Assembly (NCBI GenBank): GCA_002356515.1
Contig: AP017605.1
Coordinates: forward strand, 3,178,501-3,242,500
Direction of reading: 5' to 3'
Source of the DNA: Mesorhizobium loti
GTDB taxonomy: Bacteria > Pseudomonadota > Alphaproteobacteria > Rhizobiales > Rhizobiaceae
DNA length: 64,000 nucleotides
Both the position numbers and the translations under genes were made by a program. The notes under the pieces are model-generated. The model did not search any database. It was not told the DNA's origin and saw only the letters and a program-made list of their open reading frames with translations. Of this stretch, positions 34,721 through 41,624 are shown piece by piece. Numbering within the stretch: the first letter of the stretch is position 1; the number at the start of each line of letters is the position of its first letter.

Positions 34721-35359
34721 TCACCGCCAAAGCGCGGGAGCGCTGCCCACGCGAAGCTTTGCGAGGCGTTTCAGGCTTGAACACGCTTCGACATTCTCCA
34801 TTCCGATGACCTGGACGACCCAATCGAACTGATGTTCTCGAACCTGCATTCTGGCGCGCCGAAGTGCTTGAAACGTTGCGTCTGCCAATCGGGCAGTACC
34901 AAGTGATGCCTGGACGTTGTCGTGTGCGAGGATATCGATGGTGGTGACGATCTTGAGCGATCCAAAGCGATCTGCCGCAAGCCGCGTGGCCTTCTTCTCG
35001 TCGATTGCCGCCGAGCACCCCATCCCATGCGCGAAGGCAAGCGTCGCGGCCTCGCCGTCGCCGAGTGATTCCGATGAATTGCCCGACACGAGTTCGAAGA
35101 AGGTTTCGACAGCGCCGCCTTCAAGCTCGGCAACACGGACCACCTGATCGTCTATCAGGCGCGCCAACAGATCGAGTTCCTGCCGACCGTTCATAGCTCC
35201 ACGCTCGATCTCGCACACGACGTTGTCGGCGACCACTATCGGCATAGCCAATGCCCTTAGAATTGGGATCGGGTGGCCCGTCGCTAGTAGGTTGATTACA
35301 ACACTCGCATCAAGGACGAGCGAACTATCCTCATCAGTGAGGCAGCTTGAAAAGGTCAT
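34721..35359 (-). CDS. PIN-domain RNase, last gene of the QueC-like operon
   Basis: A 212-residue PIN-domain protein (COG2405/DUF3368 type). Acidic active-site residues are present in LVLDASVVINLL, in the GDGEAATLAFA segment and in AIDEKKATRLAADRFG. Such proteins act as sequence-dependent RNases and are usually toxins. It overlaps the upstream HTH-ImmA/IrrE gene by 26 bases, so translation is coupled. Paired with an HTH-protease it resembles toxin-antitoxin modules in which the regulator is cut to release the toxin, but the position as fourth gene behind a QueC-like gene is unusual. Confidence 0.85.
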   Translation of the reverse strand: MTFSSCLTDEDSSLVLDASVVINLLATGHPIPILRALAMPIVVADNVVCEIERGAMNGRQELDLLARLIDDQVVRVAELEGGAVETFFELVSGNSSESLGDGEAATLAFAHGMGCSAAIDEKKATRLAADRFGSLKIVTTIDILAHDNVQASLGTARLADATFQALRRARMQVREHQFDWVVQVIGMENVEACSSLKRLAKLRVGSAPALWR

Positions 35360-36509
35360 CCGCCTCATCCTCTTCCGCCGCCGCCTCATCGAGGAGTTCG
35401 CGAACCTGGGTCCGTCCGACCTTCAACATTTCGGACATTTGACCTTCACTGATCAGGTCCTTCTTCCACGCATCGATTGCGAGCAGGAAAAGCCGCGACG
35501 ATTGCGCGCTCTCGACGACGGAAGCTTCGTATGCTGCCGGGCCGAGGACTTGCCGGACTTGCTCGTCAGTAATGTTTCCGTTGTCCTTGAACCAATCCCA
35601 CGTGCCTTTCTTCGTCAGGCCGAGCTCTTCGAGACGCATGACCATGGCCTGGCGCGAAACACCAAAAAAGTTGGCGAGAAGGATGACATGACGTCGGGTG
35701 AGGTGGGTCGACCCGGTCGTTAGCTCCTTGAACTTCTCCATCACGGCACGCGCCGGAGTCAGGAAGGCCCGTCCAAATGCATTTGCGTAACGCTCTTCCC
35801 GCGAGTTCTCGTATTTCTCGTCCTGATAGACTTCTGGATGTCGGCGCGTGGCCGCGAAATGTCCGAGTTCGTGTCCCCCCGTCTGGGTCCGCCGGTCCTT
35901 TCTATGGCTGGAGTTGATGAGGACGCAGGCACCAACAGCCTCGTCGTATGCAAACAGTCCGGAGACTTTGGGATCGAGCCGTCGGCTATAGACCCTCATT
36001 CCAAGCTGAAGCTCCAGGATCGCGAATAGATTTTGTATTGGCCCTTCGCCGAGGCCGAGCCAATTCCGCAAATTCTGTGCGTCGTGCTCCGCCTGCGTAC
36101 GGACGTCGCCAGGAAGGATCATCTTTTCCGCTGGATAGTTGTAGGTCCGTTGGACCCCCAGAATGTTTTCAAGTTCAACCTCGGCCCTGACGAGGTCATT
36201 CAACATCCGGGCAGCCTGATCGATACCTGCGTCGCCCGTCTCCGGAAGCGAGCGGAAACGCGGGACAAGATCTACATGAACGGACTCACGCCGCAGCAAC
36301 GAATTAACCGAAACGCCATAACAACGGCTAAGCGCCTGCAACTCGTTGATCCGTGCACTTCGTTGGCCCTTCTCGATCGCAACAAGCGTCGTGCGTGCAA
36401 TGCCAGCAGCCTTTGCGCTGGCATCCTGAGTCACGTTCGCGGTCTCCCGCGCGACCTTTAATCTCGCTCCCAGCTCGGCCGCGCTCAGCTTGTCAATTAT
36501 CGTGGTCAT
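35334..36509 (-). CDS. HTH-ImmA/IrrE metallopeptidase regulator
   Basis: A 391-residue fusion of an XRE HTH (about residues 12-70: LGARLKVARETANVTQDASAKAAG) and a zinc metallopeptidase of the ImmA/IrrE type with HELGH (GGHELGHFAATRRHPE) and a glutamate-rich segment after it (EERYANAFGRAFLTP). In phage and ICE elements these proteins derepress genes by proteolysis in response to damage. Its start overlaps the QueC-like gene stop by 4 bases, and its end overlaps the PIN gene, so it is an integral part of the operon and the likely regulator acting on the 38470-38502 palindrome. Confidence 0.9.
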   Translation of the reverse strand: MTTIIDKLSAAELGARLKVARETANVTQDASAKAAGIARTTLVAIEKGQRSARINELQALSRCYGVSVNSLLRRESVHVDLVPRFRSLPETGDAGIDQAARMLNDLVRAEVELENILGVQRTYNYPAEKMILPGDVRTQAEHDAQNLRNWLGLGEGPIQNLFAILELQLGMRVYSRRLDPKVSGLFAYDEAVGACVLINSSHRKDRRTQTGGHELGHFAATRRHPEVYQDEKYENSREERYANAFGRAFLTPARAVMEKFKELTTGSTHLTRRHVILLANFFGVSRQAMVMRLEELGLTKKGTWDWFKDNGNITDEQVRQVLGPAAYEASVVESAQSSRLFLLAIDAWKKDLISEGQMSEMLKVGRTQVRELLDEAAAEEDEADDLFKLPH

Positions 36510-37888
36510 GATGCGGTATCTATCCATTTCCTTACGAATGATCCTGATCCCAGATCATTCGTGAACGCCGACCATTCCGTGGCGTGGTGTTGCAAAAGCC
36601 GATCGAGGCCGTCGGCAACCACCTCTGGCGGCTGCGCCAGTGCGCGGGCGAGTTCGTTCGTCGCGCGACGCTTAAGCATGTCGTACTGCGTGGAATTTCG
36701 GATCGAAGCCAAGTGCTCGAAATGCAGCACTCCCGCCAGCGCGTACTCGCGCAAAGCTTGCGTGGTATGATTGAACTCGGGGGCGGCCCCTTCCTCAAAG
36801 GTCGGAGCCTTCAGCGTCTCCCATACATATTTCTCGTTGGATTCTCGCAAGCCGGCGGCATGAACACTCAGGCGACGCAGCATGCACGCCGCGCAGATGC
36901 CGCATTGCCGCCGCGTCCCTGCTACTGAGGCCTGCCGCGACTGCTGCCAGCAGGACCGGGTCTCGGCCCATTTCGCCGCTTCAATTCCGCAATTGTCGAC
37001 GAATTCCCGAAGCGTCTCGCCCTTCGTCATCCAGAGCCGAGGAAAATTGTAGCGAAGGCGATACCCAAACAGAGCATCGACGAACTTCTCCATCAAGACA
37101 GTGAAGGCAGGGTGATTGCGGTAGTCCGCGTAGCCCTGTCCAACCGGAAGCATCGCCGGCGCAAGGGCGCCCTGCCCGCTTTCAGGTACGATCACCGACG
37201 GCGCATTGATCAGATAGGCGGCGATGGCGGCCACTAAACTGAACTTGAACCCTCTGCTTCGAGCGCTGGTCTCGGCATTATTGCCGTCCAAAGCGACCTC
37301 ATAGGGCAGTGCTGCGAATGGAACGTAAGGCCGCACCTTCCTCGGTATGTCACGGTGGTTAGTGCCTACTCTCACTCGAACCAGCCGATGTCCAAGACGT
37401 TTACGCTCGAGTCCGTCTACCGCGCGCGAATCCATCCCCTCGCTGTAGGCAATAACCGCCTCTGCGTCCCGGGGAAATTCCATGCGGCTCTGGCTAGGCG
37501 TTTCCGCAGGCGATTTGCGAGGACGAAACTCGAAATGCCAATCATCGCCTGTAAGAAGATCTAAGGCCTCAGTAAGCGTTCGCATCACTGTCCGATCCGA
37601 CCAGCGTGCCGGATCGTGGACCGGCACACGGACATGGAAGCGACGGCCCCAATTCATCGCGCTGCGGCCAAGACTGCGGTCGCAGAATTCAACTGCGGCC
37701 GCAACCACAAGGGCATCGTAAACAACTGCTTGCCAGTTGGTCGATGAGAAGGATTCCAGAATTTCGGTATCGAAACTGATGTGCCGTTCGAGTTCGCAAG
37801 CGAGAGCACCCCTACGTGGACGCCCACCGCGTTCGATAACATCGACGACTACTTCCTTGAGCTCGAGAAATAGTGCGGCCGGGTTCAT
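36506..37888 (-). CDS. QueC-like deazaguanine-synthase-family protein in a defence operon
   Basis: A 460-residue protein related to 7-cyano-7-deazaguanine synthase (QueC), about twice the size of housekeeping QueC. The PP-loop ATP motif is SEGMDSRAV (149-156; canonical SGGxDS, first Gly replaced by Glu). A central FKFSLVAAIAAYLINAPSVIVPESG block and zinc ligands C313, C329, C332, C335 (CGICAAC) match QueC. The N-terminal 140 residues are extra and unrecognised. QueC homologues also occur in Qat and type IV CBASS anti-phage systems, where they are reported to modify partner proteins or nucleobases. It is flanked tightly by an unknown gene (4-base overlap) and the HTH-protease (4-base overlap). 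Confidence 0.85.
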   Translation of the reverse strand: MNPAALFLELKEVVVDVIERGGRPRRGALACELERHISFDTEILESFSSTNWQAVVYDALVVAAAVEFCDRSLGRSAMNWGRRFHVRVPVHDPARWSDRTVMRTLTEALDLLTGDDWHFEFRPRKSPAETPSQSRMEFPRDAEAVIAYSEGMDSRAVDGLERKRLGHRLVRVRVGTNHRDIPRKVRPYVPFAALPYEVALDGNNAETSARSRGFKFSLVAAIAAYLINAPSVIVPESGQGALAPAMLPVGQGYADYRNHPAFTVLMEKFVDALFGYRLRYNFPRLWMTKGETLREFVDNCGIEAAKWAETRSCWQQSRQASVAGTRRQCGICAACMLRRLSVHAAGLRESNEKYVWETLKAPTFEEGAAPEFNHTTQALREYALAGVLHFEHLASIRNSTQYDMLKRRATNELARALAQPPEVVADGLDRLLQHHATEWSAFTNDLGSGSFVRKWIDTAS

Positions 37889-38457
37889 TGCAGCGGCACC
37901 CCGTCGTTGATTTCGCTTCTTTTGCGGGGGGCACGCGAGAGTACAGGCTGCGGGTCGACCAGCATCGAACCAAGCTTGCCCTCAGACAATCCTGAGATGG
38001 CATTGCTGAGCCTTGCGCTGACGTTATCTGCGCGCCTCTGATTTGCCTCGCGCAGGTAGTGCTCTTCCACCGACCTGGTATTCGCGAAACTTCGTTCTTT
38101 AGCGGCAAGGCCCACAGCGTCGTAGAGCGCCTGTTTATCCAGTCGGCCTTCATGGACGAGCTGGATACTCCAGGCGACAGCATTCATGCCAAACACCGAA
38201 CCTGCGGCTAACGCCTTTGCCTCATCGAGCTGTTGAAGAGCAATCTCGGTAATGCCCAAGGAGTTATCGCGTCCGGTGAAAACATCCTTCAAAGCGCAGA
38301 GCAGTCGGCCGGAAACCTCGTTCTTGAAATCGCTGGCGAGCGCGTGCGTGGCGGCCTCTGTAACTTGCCCGGAATCGTAGGTGAGCTGATCTCCTCGCTT
38401 GGCCAACTCCTTCCATGGTCTTCGCATTGGCAGGCTTCTATGCGGTCCGTCGCTCAT
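37885..38457 (-). CDS. Unknown first gene of the QueC-like operon
   Basis: A 190-residue protein, mainly helical (ALASDFKNEVSGRLLCALKDVF; LQQLDEAKALAAGSVFGMNAVAWSIQLV; EEHYLREANQRRADNVSARLS). No known motif is seen. It is the first gene of the coupled operon and so the likely substrate or partner of the QueC-like enzyme. The start used directly follows the promoter-operator region; an alternative start would shorten the N-terminus by ten residues. Confidence 0.7.
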   Translation of the reverse strand: MSDGPHRSLPMRRPWKELAKRGDQLTYDSGQVTEAATHALASDFKNEVSGRLLCALKDVFTGRDNSLGITEIALQQLDEAKALAAGSVFGMNAVAWSIQLVHEGRLDKQALYDAVGLAAKERSFANTRSVEEHYLREANQRRADNVSARLSNAISGLSEGKLGSMLVDPQPVLSRAPRKRSEINDGVPLQ

Positions 38458-38469
38458 CGACCGTCCTCC

Positions 38470-38502
38470 AATGTCAGATTTATTATACTAAAATCAGACA
38501 TT
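38470..38502. promoter_or_regulatory. Inverted repeat and promoter upstream of the QueC-like operon
   Basis: AATGTCAGATTT (38470-38481) and AAATCAGACATT (38491-38502) are inverted repeats with one mismatch, 9 bases apart. On the minus strand they flank TATAAT (38482-38487), with TTGACA at 38502-38507. The spacing of 14 bases is shorter than normal, so promoter strength may depend on a regulator. The site sits 13 bases before the first gene, ideal for autoregulation by the HTH-ImmA/IrrE protein. Confidence 0.65.
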
Positions 38503-38670
38503 GTCAAACTAACCAACGCCTCTCAAGCGCCGAACCTGCGGTTTCGCGTCGCCGAGACCAACAGGCTCTGCCGCAGGCAGTAGTCCTTGCGGCTCGTCCC
38601 AAGCCCCAAGATGCAAGCGTAGCCGTAAGCGAGTCGGGCTTTGCGGAAAAACGCGTTATTTGCCGCGCAG

Positions 38671-38733: not shown

Positions 38734-39810
38734 ATGGAAGACCGCACAACCGACGCACTTGTTGAGGATTTCGCTGCGGCGGTGGCGGAGGTTACGGGCG
38801 CTCATCCCGAGGTCGTTTACGAGTCCGAGCCTTTGCAGGGGACCTATCGGCCTGATGTTGTGATGGAGCTGAAACACGAGAGCGGCTCGTTCCGCCTTGT
38901 CATCGAGGCAAAGCGATCGCTGTTTCCCCGCGATGCCCGCGAAGCGATCTGGCATCTCAGGAAATATCTCGAAGGCCCGACGGGCCGCTCGATCGTGCCT
39001 GTGCTGATAGCGGAGACGATTTCCCCAGGTGCGCGCCAACTGCTTCACGATGAGCGCGTAGGATATTTCGATTCCAGCGGAAGCCTCTTCATACCCGCCA
39101 GAGGGCTTTACGTCCGTGTCGATCGGCCGACGTCGAGGAAGCAGGCTCGTTCGCTCAATAATCTGTTCGCCGGCCGCCGTGCTCAAGTCCTGCACGCTGT
39201 CTGGGTTCTCGGGCATGACTGGTTCGGCGTTCACCAGATCGCAGATCGCGCGGGAGTGTCGCCGGCAACAGCATCGGAAACGTTGATCGGCATCGAGCGC
39301 CGGGAATGGGTCGAAGTGCGAGGGGCCGGGCCCTCCAAAGAACGTCGCCTGACCAACCCGCACGAGCTGCTCGACGCTTGGTCGAGCTATCAAACGTCAG
39401 TCAAACCAAAAGCCGTCCGACACTTCTACGTGCGGTCGATCACACCGCCGAACCTACAGCGACGGATCGATCACGCATGCGAGACACATGGTGTCTCCTA
39501 TGAGCTCGCCGACATTACGGCCGGCCAGATCCATACGCCCTATTTGTCGAGCGTTTCTCAGGTCTTCTGCCGAATTCCGGCCGGAGGGAACATGAAAACC
39601 ATGCTCGAGTCGATCGACGCCCGACCCGTGAGAGAGGGGTGGAATCTCGGCGTTCACGAGATCGCCTCCGATAGCGAACTGAGGTTTCGCCAGAAGATCG
39701 ATGACCTCTGGGTCGCCGATCCGCTCCAGACGTATCTCGATCTTCTCCAGGCCGGCGGGCGTGCCAAGGAACTGGCACAGCATCTGCGGGCAGAGAAGCT
39801 GGAGGCGTAA
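38734..39810 (+). CDS. AbiEi-like antitoxin with N-terminal nuclease-like domain
   Basis: A 358-residue protein of the type IV toxin-antitoxin AbiEi class in its C-terminal two thirds: a winged HTH (VLHAVWVLGHDWFGVHQIADRAGVSPATASETLIG) followed by the antitoxin domain. The N-terminal 110 residues resemble a PDDEXK endonuclease fold (RPDVVMELKH, FRLVIEAKRSL), which is not part of classic AbiEi. It overlaps the nucleotidyltransferase start by 1 base, so the two are coupled. Predicted role: autorepressor and antitoxin, perhaps also a nuclease. Confidence 0.82.
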   Translation: MEDRTTDALVEDFAAAVAEVTGAHPEVVYESEPLQGTYRPDVVMELKHESGSFRLVIEAKRSLFPRDAREAIWHLRKYLEGPTGRSIVPVLIAETISPGARQLLHDERVGYFDSSGSLFIPARGLYVRVDRPTSRKQARSLNNLFAGRRAQVLHAVWVLGHDWFGVHQIADRAGVSPATASETLIGIERREWVEVRGAGPSKERRLTNPHELLDAWSSYQTSVKPKAVRHFYVRSITPPNLQRRIDHACETHGVSYELADITAGQIHTPYLSSVSQVFCRIPAGGNMKTMLESIDARPVREGWNLGVHEIASDSELRFRQKIDDLWVADPLQTYLDLLQAGGRAKELAQHLRAEKLEA

Positions 39811-40718
39811 TGGCAAAACCACAGTTCCTCATCGACTATAGCGAGGACGTGACGCGCGATTGCGAGCGTGTGCTCGTCACACTGTTCAGCGGCCTCGGAC
39901 CATGGCGTGACTCGGTGTTCCTCGTCGGCGGGCTGACTCCGCGCTACTTGGTAACGGCCCGTCCGCCCGACGTTCCGGCACATGCCGGCACCGGAGATAT
40001 CGACGTCGTCGTCGATCTGGCCGTCCTGGCTGACACCGAGGCCTATCGCTCACTCGAAGAGAACCTTAAGCGCATGGGCTTCGAACGGGCCGAGAACGAC
40101 AAGGGCGTCAAGGTCAATTGGCGCTGGAAGACCAAGACGGAGCACGATGTCACGGTCGTGCTCGAATTCCTGGCTGACGACCCCGAACTGAAAGGCGGCG
40201 CGTTACAAGAGCTCCCGACCGATGGGAATATCTCGGCGGTCAATATTCCTCATGCGTCGCTCGTCTTCGATCTGCATGATCGGATGGAGGTGACGGCAGA
40301 TCTGCTGGGTCAAAAGGGTCGAGCCACCCAAAGCATTCCCTACGCCAACATCGTATCGTTCACCTGCCTAAAGGCCTTTGCGTTCGATCACCGTCGTGAA
40401 GGCAAGGATGCCCATGACCTGGCGTATTGTCTCGAGCACGGAGGGGGCGGGTTCGAGGGCGCCGTCGCGAAATTCAAGGATGCGTTGGCCGGCAAGCACG
40501 CCGACATCATTGATGCGGCGCTCGCGATCCTGCTGAAGCGCTTTTGCGATCCCAATCCCGATGAAGGCTATCTTCGCGAAGGCCCCGTCGCAGCGGCCCG
40601 ATTTGAGATCGAAGGGGATGACGGCGACCCTGAAGTCCGCGAGCAGCGGGCGCTTCGACAGCGCGCCGTGAACGACGTGATTTCGCGGCTGCTCGGCGAA
40701 CTCGGTGCCGGGGGATAA
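39810..40718 (+). CDS. AbiEii-like nucleotidyltransferase toxin
   Basis: A 302-residue nucleotidyltransferase. The GG motif (FLVGGLTPRYL) and metal-binding DxD (TGDIDVVVDL) are intact, followed by HDVTVVLEFLADD for the third acid. AbiEii toxins transfer nucleotides to tRNA or other acceptors to stop phage growth. It shares its start with the end of the AbiEi-like gene and abuts the PDDEXK gene, so it is the middle of a three-gene operon. Confidence 0.82.
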   Translation: MAKPQFLIDYSEDVTRDCERVLVTLFSGLGPWRDSVFLVGGLTPRYLVTARPPDVPAHAGTGDIDVVVDLAVLADTEAYRSLEENLKRMGFERAENDKGVKVNWRWKTKTEHDVTVVLEFLADDPELKGGALQELPTDGNISAVNIPHASLVFDLHDRMEVTADLLGQKGRATQSIPYANIVSFTCLKAFAFDHRREGKDAHDLAYCLEHGGGGFEGAVAKFKDALAGKHADIIDAALAILLKRFCDPNPDEGYLREGPVAAARFEIEGDDGDPEVREQRALRQRAVNDVISRLLGELGAGG

Positions 40719-41624
40719 ATGGAGCAGCTACGACCTGTCGAATTGAAGCTCGTAGACGAATTGTTCGGCATGAGCTCGGGCTATGTCCTCGACTTCACGA
40801 ACGGCACATTCTCCGAATTCTTCCGCCGCGAAGTCAGGATCGACATCTACGATAGTGCCTATGCCATTTATGGCGGCAGCAAGGGGAAGCATCTGCGCGC
40901 TTTCCTCACGATCGGACAGCCAAGAGCGATCGCCAAGGCTCTTACCGCGCTTTGGGAGTACCGTGAAACGGATCGGCTCGCGCGAGCACAGACGGAGACA
41001 GTGATCAACGCGCGTCGCCGGTTGAGCGCGATCGTGGAGCGACTGGGCGGCAGCTCTCTTGAGAGCTACGAGTCCGCAACGGGCGATGTCGAGACTAAAT
41101 CACAAAGCGCGCCGCGGGTGTTTCGCGCCGAGGAGGCTACGTTGCGGCGCCTCGAGGAGCGCTTCTTCGCGCTCCACGAGATGTCGGATGAGCCCCACGC
41201 CCGCGGCCGTCATTTCGAGACGCTGCTCACGGACCTTTTCAATGCCTGGGGCATGGATGCGCGTGGTGGCTTCACGCTCATTGGCGAGCAGATCGATGGT
41301 TCGTTTCAGCTCGGTGGCGTAACCTATCTGCTTGAGGCGAAATGGCACCGCGCGAAGACCGATGCCAACACTCTACATGGATTCCAGGGCACGGTCGGCG
41401 AACGGCTCGAGGGGACACGAGGTCTCTTCGTTAGCTTCTCGGGCTATACCGATGTCGGCCTGCAGGCGTTTACGGCAAGGAAGATCATTCTTGCCGACGG
41501 AATGGACATCTACGACGCCTTGGCCCGGCGCCTTTCGATCCCCGACGTCATCGCTGCGAAGATTCGCCACGCTTCAGAATATCGAAATCCTTTCGAGCGG
41601 GTGCGCAACTTGTTCCCTTTGTGA
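40719..41624 (+). CDS. Restriction-endonuclease-like protein of the AbiE operon
   Basis: A 301-residue protein. The C-terminal half has a PDDEXK-type Mrr-like core (RGRHFETLLTDLFNAWGMDARGGF; LEAKWHR; GLFVSFSGYTDVGLQAF). The N-terminal 100 residues (FGMSSGYVLDFTNGTFSEFFRRE; FLTIGQPRAIAKAL) resemble N-terminal domains seen on diverse abortive-infection proteins; I cannot name it precisely. The start directly abuts the stop of the nucleotidyltransferase, so it is a third member of the pair, which is not standard for AbiE. Confidence 0.8.
   Translation: MEQLRPVELKLVDELFGMSSGYVLDFTNGTFSEFFRREVRIDIYDSAYAIYGGSKGKHLRAFLTIGQPRAIAKALTALWEYRETDRLARAQTETVINARRRLSAIVERLGGSSLESYESATGDVETKSQSAPRVFRAEEATLRRLEERFFALHEMSDEPHARGRHFETLLTDLFNAWGMDARGGFTLIGEQIDGSFQLGGVTYLLEAKWHRAKTDANTLHGFQGTVGERLEGTRGLFVSFSGYTDVGLQAFTARKIILADGMDIYDALARRLSIPDVIAAKIRHASEYRNPFERVRNLFPL

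Follow-up and report, generated by a model that had tools for sequence, protein, structure and literature searches.

A candidate for an undescribed anti-virus operon in Mesorhizobium loti: four genes for a putative protein-modifying enzyme, its partner, a protease-type repressor and a predicted RNase toxin

In a stretch of 64,000 nucleotides from Mesorhizobium loti (contig AP017605.1, positions 3,178,501 to 3,242,500; referred to here as the window) we analyzed an operon of four genes on the minus strand, g1 to g4. The set resembles an antiviral operon of a kind not yet described, where an enzyme for protein modification, with its partner, is coupled to a repressor of the protease type and to a toxin predicted to cut RNA. 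According to the listing of open reading frames (ORFs), g1 (37885-38457) encodes 190 amino acids and g2 (36506-37888) 460 amino acids, the latter a QatC-type enzyme of the QueC family. The product of g3 (35334-36509, 391 amino acids) combines a helix-turn-helix (HTH) and an ImmA/IrrE (M78) domain with a UPF0175-like C-terminal stretch, and g4 (34721-35359, 212 amino acids) encodes a PIN-domain protein. We see roughly even chances that this is an immune operon, in which a QatBC-like pair would carry out a modification and would be coupled to an autoregulated arm of protease and PIN toxin that would serve defence.

Linkage of the four genes and their operator

The ORFs overlap at all three junctions, by 4 (g1/g2), 4 (g2/g3) and 26 bases (g3/g4). 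For g3 the reading frame also has an open ATG at 36527. The longest ORF of g4 starts at 35389, and Met11 of that ORF is invariant in 18 homologues. To describe the family we used 34 loci, which are related and not independent: the window, L001-L009, L033-L041 and 15 plasmid loci (L032 duplicates L002 and was dropped). In all 34 the four genes are present to the extent that the contigs cover them, with one g1 and one g2 being frame-broken, and g4 is found in every locus whose contig reaches it.

The four genes form one unit. A pattern-based scan of genome contigs for g2 gave nine loci (two Bradyrhizobium, a metagenome-assembled genome (MAG) of Rhizobiales, Thauera, Undibacterium, a planctomycete MAG, Azonexus, Janthinobacterium and Massilia). 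Seven of these have all four genes in order; in the other two the locus breaks off within g3 (L005) or starts within g1 (L009). When 397 genomes of the order were searched with g3 (E <= 1e-60), 11 places in 10 genomes were found, each preceded by a relative of g2 and followed by g4, and with g1 in 10 cases. A profile of g2 matched 6 out of 398 genomes of the phylum: four contain the set, among them the own genome of the window with an additional copy on contig C3, and the other two (G722 and G336) carry a different QueC-like family. Separate tblastn searches of 72,556 plasmid records with g2 (E <= 1e-20) and g3 (E <= 1e-30) gave 26 places each, and comparison of the two lists by eye showed that they match the same 25 records. 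Fifteen of these were examined, the ten left out including near-identical Labrenzia and Rhizobium/Agrobacterium records. All four genes are present in 15/15; the reading frame of g1 is broken in Sinorhizobium fredii (L059), and g2 of Mesorhizobium huakuii (L063) is split. Together the genome, order and plasmid searches rule out a chance co-occurrence.

Two incomplete versions were also found. In the C3 copy (L012:5635-9737) g3 and g4 are open, g1 is missing, g2 is chimeric, a stretch with HETIH taking the place of its first half, and no operator was found; the gene in the place of g1 is presumably a DUF3800 protein. The IMG/VR contig L080 (4911-6636) carries a relative of g3 with up to 63% identity, and neither g1 nor g2. 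Its PIN gene is recognisable only in the first part and an endolysin gene lies near by. This single case is possibly an anti-defence decoy that keeps the system silent. A search of phage records with g3 gave no match at E <= 1e-30.

Ahead of g1 lies an inverted repeat with arms of 13 bases and one mismatch around a TATAAT box. Its score was reached by none of 200 single-base shuffles. At other loci the number of shuffles (of 200) reaching the score of the long repeat was 86 (L001), 80 (L002), 163 (L003), 16 (L004), 6 (L006), 170 (L007) and 0 (L008). The long palindrome of the window is not general among the loci, which instead have a shorter operator motif in common. In the window this promoter-operator region occupies 38472-38507 on the minus strand (TTGACAATGTCTGATTTTAGTATAATAAATCTGACA) and holds the conserved core. 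The core TTGAC[AT][AT]TGT is present in 18/18 loci, starting 47–52 bases upstream of g1, and a second element, TGACA, follows 30–31 bases past the TGAC of the core in 14 of them. Among the plasmid loci 11/15 have the core and the remaining four carry variants, namely TTGACATGTCA in L059, L060 and L062 and CGACATTGTCG in L067. The strict pattern occurs once in the 8.45 Mb of the own genome. Since the operator overlaps the likely promoter, a repressor bound there would block it, and we infer that g3 acts as this repressor. A preliminary description of this DNA had pointed out the overlapping junctions and the inverted repeat around TATAAT and had put the four genes forward as one set. Both features are borne out, and the searches contradict a rare co-occurrence of the homologues, the outcome that would have refuted the proposal.

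The four proteins

The g2 protein scores 23.3 bits with Pfam QueC (cut-off 22) and matches QatC in PADLOC with E 2.1e-32; the NCBIfam QatC model gives 126.7 bits, under its cut-off of 280. Its predicted model matches QatC over the full length, N- and C-terminal extensions included, and in this model the fold is of the QatC type. The residues Y253-x-D255-x-R257 fall near the position of the invariant T278/T280 of QatC, where the sequence alignment with QatC is ambiguous by a gap, and this Y-x-D motif resembles canonical QueC.

For g1 we found no family match in Pfam, PADLOC or NCBIfam and by profile no convincing solved relative (best E 0.1). Its AlphaFold2 (AF2) model has eight helices (pLDDT 87.7, pTM 0.81), with residues 1–12 and 168–190 unstructured. 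The start is strongly conserved. MSDGP opens all 36 rows of an alignment that includes 35 homologues out of the 120 listed for g1 (459 matches in all). Across the 33 loci with a readable start it is M-[ST]-D-G-P in 32 and M-R-D-G-I in one: position 2 is S in 24, T in 8 and R in one, D3 and G4 are present in 33/33, P5 in 32/33 and W15 in 29/33. In 32 loci the commonest residue averages 94% at positions 1–5 vs 43% at positions 16–167, and synonymous codons of the tail vary between loci. At the other end [DN][DEQV]G followed by 2–4 residues is found in 31/32 loci. The two disordered tails bear look-alike motifs, [ST]DGP at the N-end and [DN][DE]G[VP] at the C-end. A far clade of nine loci has only 20–24% identity to g1 of the window and is still homologous to it (hhalign E 3.7e-15, or 6.7e-5 with the tails cut). 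Some listed homologues have 173–180 amino acids, and the two of them that were inspected, P0144 and P0160, start, as annotated, at Met11 and so without the tail. A recognisable QatB was rejected for g1: hhalign gave no match and Foldseek none at E <= 0.001. The likeness in fold is weak and likeness in sequence is absent. By position and design we call g1 a QatB-like partner, not a member of that family.

The g3 protein contains an HTH and a Peptidase_M78 domain (54.8 bits, cut-off 22) with HELGH at 213–217. The predicted active-site residues H213, E214, H217 and E239 are intact in 34/34. PADLOC matches it to RmrA (E 2.2e-26, residues 15–376), capP (7e-13) and capH (5.8e-6). The UPF0175-like C-terminal end is seen in 14/20 g3 proteins with a best E of 6.3e-5, the window protein scoring 17.8 bits, under the cut-off of 27.9. 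Of the four proteins, that of g3 shows the highest conservation among the loci L001-L009. For g4 the Pfam PIN score is 19.2 bits, under the cut-off of 23.6, and PADLOC PDC-S70 matches with E 1e-9; Pfam PIN is matched by 11/21 g4 proteins at E <= 1. The acidic residues D27, E60, D111, E113 and D130 (numbering from 35389) are kept in 33/33, and by profile no solved relative was found at E <= 1. PIN is listed both with COG2856-HTH fusions and with UPF0175 proteins in PMC2701414, and in PMC10440598 PIN-like proteins are among the partners reported for ImmA antitoxins (RosmerTA). The g3-g4 half is of a known kind; g3 is likely an autorepressor and antitoxin and g4 likely an RNase toxin.

The preliminary description had named a QueC-like enzyme, an HTH-ImmA protein and a PIN protein, and these are g2, g3 and g4. 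It had also guessed that g1 is a modified partner. The conserved disordered N-tail beside a QatC-like enzyme favours this guess, while the modification itself stays putative.

Genomic neighbourhood

The operon was described as lying between Shedu and AbiE/Gabija genes. On one side a Shedu gene (PADLOC E 1.3e-175) and on the other GajA and GajB (2.8e-235 and 1.5e-240), all on the plus strand, are clear, but the name AbiE is not reached with Pfam: AbiEi_2 gives 16.4 vs 21 bits and AbiEii 18.0 vs 22.5 bits. The protein following this pair scores 29.8 bits with Mrr_cat (cut-off 21). The weak AbiEi-like, weak AbiEii-like and Mrr_cat genes abut at 38734-41624 on the plus strand, with the operon on one side and Gabija on the other; they could form a defence unit of their own. 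Ten further ORFs in 20569-51003 match kinases, transglutaminases, periplasmic binding proteins and similar, one being without match.

For the neighbours at other loci we tested 19 flanking ORFs from 13 loci, picked by size and place. PADLOC defence matches were found at 7/13 loci (GajB twice, SoFic three times, a PtuA-type ATPase and mad2). According to the plasmid annotation Shedu lies directly downstream of the operon in Roseomonas (L067), as it lies near the operon in the window, and L056 has an AbiEi/AbiEii pair. The own genome has two QueC genes besides g2 (G000:C1:5275030-5276482 and 5408689-5410365), each beside a QueE-like match, the second of these under the cut-off of its family.

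Another QueC-like family was seen at L042:5218-7885 and L043:4354-7028. Its ORFs of 627–681 amino acids have a TRTTHP motif as in QatC and overlap a partner of 260–264 amino acids that starts with MGHI[HR]LG and has P and W further on. This looks like one more QatBC-type pair.

Proposed mechanism, alternatives and known systems

In an immune operon of this kind the g2 protein, as an ATP-using QatC-type member of the QueC family, would bind g1 and act on its disordered N-tail (M-[ST]-D-G-P...W), most likely by joining a 7-deazaguanine-type group to it. Ser/Thr2, or Gly4 after a cleavage, are candidates for the acceptor residue. The g1 homologue with Arg2 makes a strict requirement for residue 2 less likely. 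g3 would repress the operon from the conserved operator and hold the PIN protein g4 inactive, until a phage-linked signal, e.g. single-stranded DNA or a disturbed g1-g2 pair, inactivates it. Expression would then rise and g4 would be freed, cut RNA and stop growth. Single-stranded DNA is plausible as a signal by analogy with PprI and CapP, proteases of the fold of g3 that, as reported in PMC10904395, relieve repression when triggered by it.

We base the immune reading on the fixed linkage, on the full-length QatC match of g2 and on the QatC-QatB core of qatABCD with its essential QatB N-tail, which is described in PMC13279940. The conserved tail of g1, one operator over one promoter and the intact M78 and PIN residues point in the same direction. 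So do the UPF0175-like end of g3, UPF0175 being a family of PIN partners as is COG2856-HTH, and the ImmA antitoxins with PIN-like partners. Finally, the precursor enzymes QueC and QueE are encoded side by side in the genome, and defence genes are neighbours in the window and at 7/13 loci. A more specific version appears unlikely to us: g2 would place the 7-deazaguanine-type group on Ser/Thr2, or on Gly4 after a protease of the operon has cleaved Asp3-Gly4, the state of g1 would decide whether g3 silences the PIN protein, and some phages would answer with a lone g3 and a truncated PIN. If true, QueC-based defence would have a third lineage, with a conjugate controlling a toxin-antitoxin pair.

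Each half being of a known kind by itself, the transcript could also join two modules without mutual signalling, one a defence pair like QatBC, the other a toxin-antitoxin of the COG2856-PIN kind whose sole effect would be to stabilise the cassette where it sits on plasmids and islands. QatB-QatC alone protects against some phages according to PMC13279940, many copies of the operon are on plasmids and g3 also occurs by itself with a PIN stub. However, g2 and g3 are never apart in the plasmid search (25/25 records) and the strong conservation of g3 is unlike a freely exchangeable module, and we regard this arrangement as somewhat improbable. We are more doubtful that g3 is only a regulator of the DNA-damage type (fused CapP/CapH- or PprI/DdrO-like) and no antitoxin, switching on g1, g2 and g4 with g4 as the effector of g1-g2. 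The capP and capH matches, the conserved operator and the single-stranded DNA-triggered proteases fit such a role, but the order and overlap of g3 and g4, the UPF0175-like C-end and the ImmA antitoxins reported to pair with PIN-like proteins fit an antitoxin. It is very unlikely that the operon serves metabolism or RNA modification in the manner of queuosine genes and has no immune role. g2 belongs to the QueC superfamily and its Y-x-D motif is like that of canonical QueC, but the occurrence is patchy (10/397 genomes of the order), copies reside on plasmids, defence genes are neighbours, a PIN gene is part of the operon, g2 has the QatC-type extensions and the genome encodes two further QueC proteins.

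As an immune operon, the set would join, within a single mobile unit, immunity of the QueC family with repressor-proteases of the ImmA/IrrE type and with PIN proteins, and its family hints at a phage counter-measure. The chemistry of QatC on QatB, described as open in PMC13279940, may become testable in a second system, in which the partner is smaller, its tail differs and is conserved to the same degree, and the Y-x-D of the enzyme looks canonical.

In qatABCD, QatB is helical with a disordered N-tail, an MGTS start and conserved P16 and W18 (PMC13279940); g1 is likewise a neighbouring helical partner with a disordered, conserved N-tail and a downstream Trp, and g2 and QatC both bear N- and C-terminal extensions. 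In contrast, the g1 tail reads M-[ST]-D-G-P vs MGTS in eight QatB proteins (the long matches among 11, with the start set at MGTS), the second residue of the P-loop is D/E/N/K in the g2 family vs G in QatC, and g3-g4 is always attached in intact loci of the g2 family. No Pfam match to QatA (KAP NTPase) or QatD (TatD nuclease) was found in the 20 ORFs scanned in 20569-51003; this, together with the lack of MGTS and the missed NCBIfam equivalog cut-off, rules out qatABCD itself. Type IV CBASS is ruled out as well, as there is no CD-NTase and the other three genes are g1, HTH-M78 and PIN; in addition g2 has 460 amino acids vs about 185 in Cap9 (PMC13329287). In the same paper the ten largest QueC-family clusters are mapped, Qat and CBASS being the defence ones, and qatA is near only about one third of its QatC cluster, so that the g2 family may lie inside that cluster. 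With RosmerTA/COG2856-PIN (PMC10440598, PMC2701414) the operon shares an HTH-ImmA protein overlapping a PIN gene, here by 26 bases, but g3-g4 has its fixed place downstream of g1-g2, under an operator common to both pairs. CapP/CapH and PprI/DdrO likewise have HTH and M78 protease domains and a promoter-overlapping operator; in g3 the HTH and protease are instead fused and a PIN gene follows. The preliminary description knew of no described system with this set. For the combination this holds in the open-licence PMC literature (bioRxiv not covered), where we found no paper describing it, but each half resembles a described kind (QatBC; COG2856-PIN/RosmerTA), so the operon is not without precedent.
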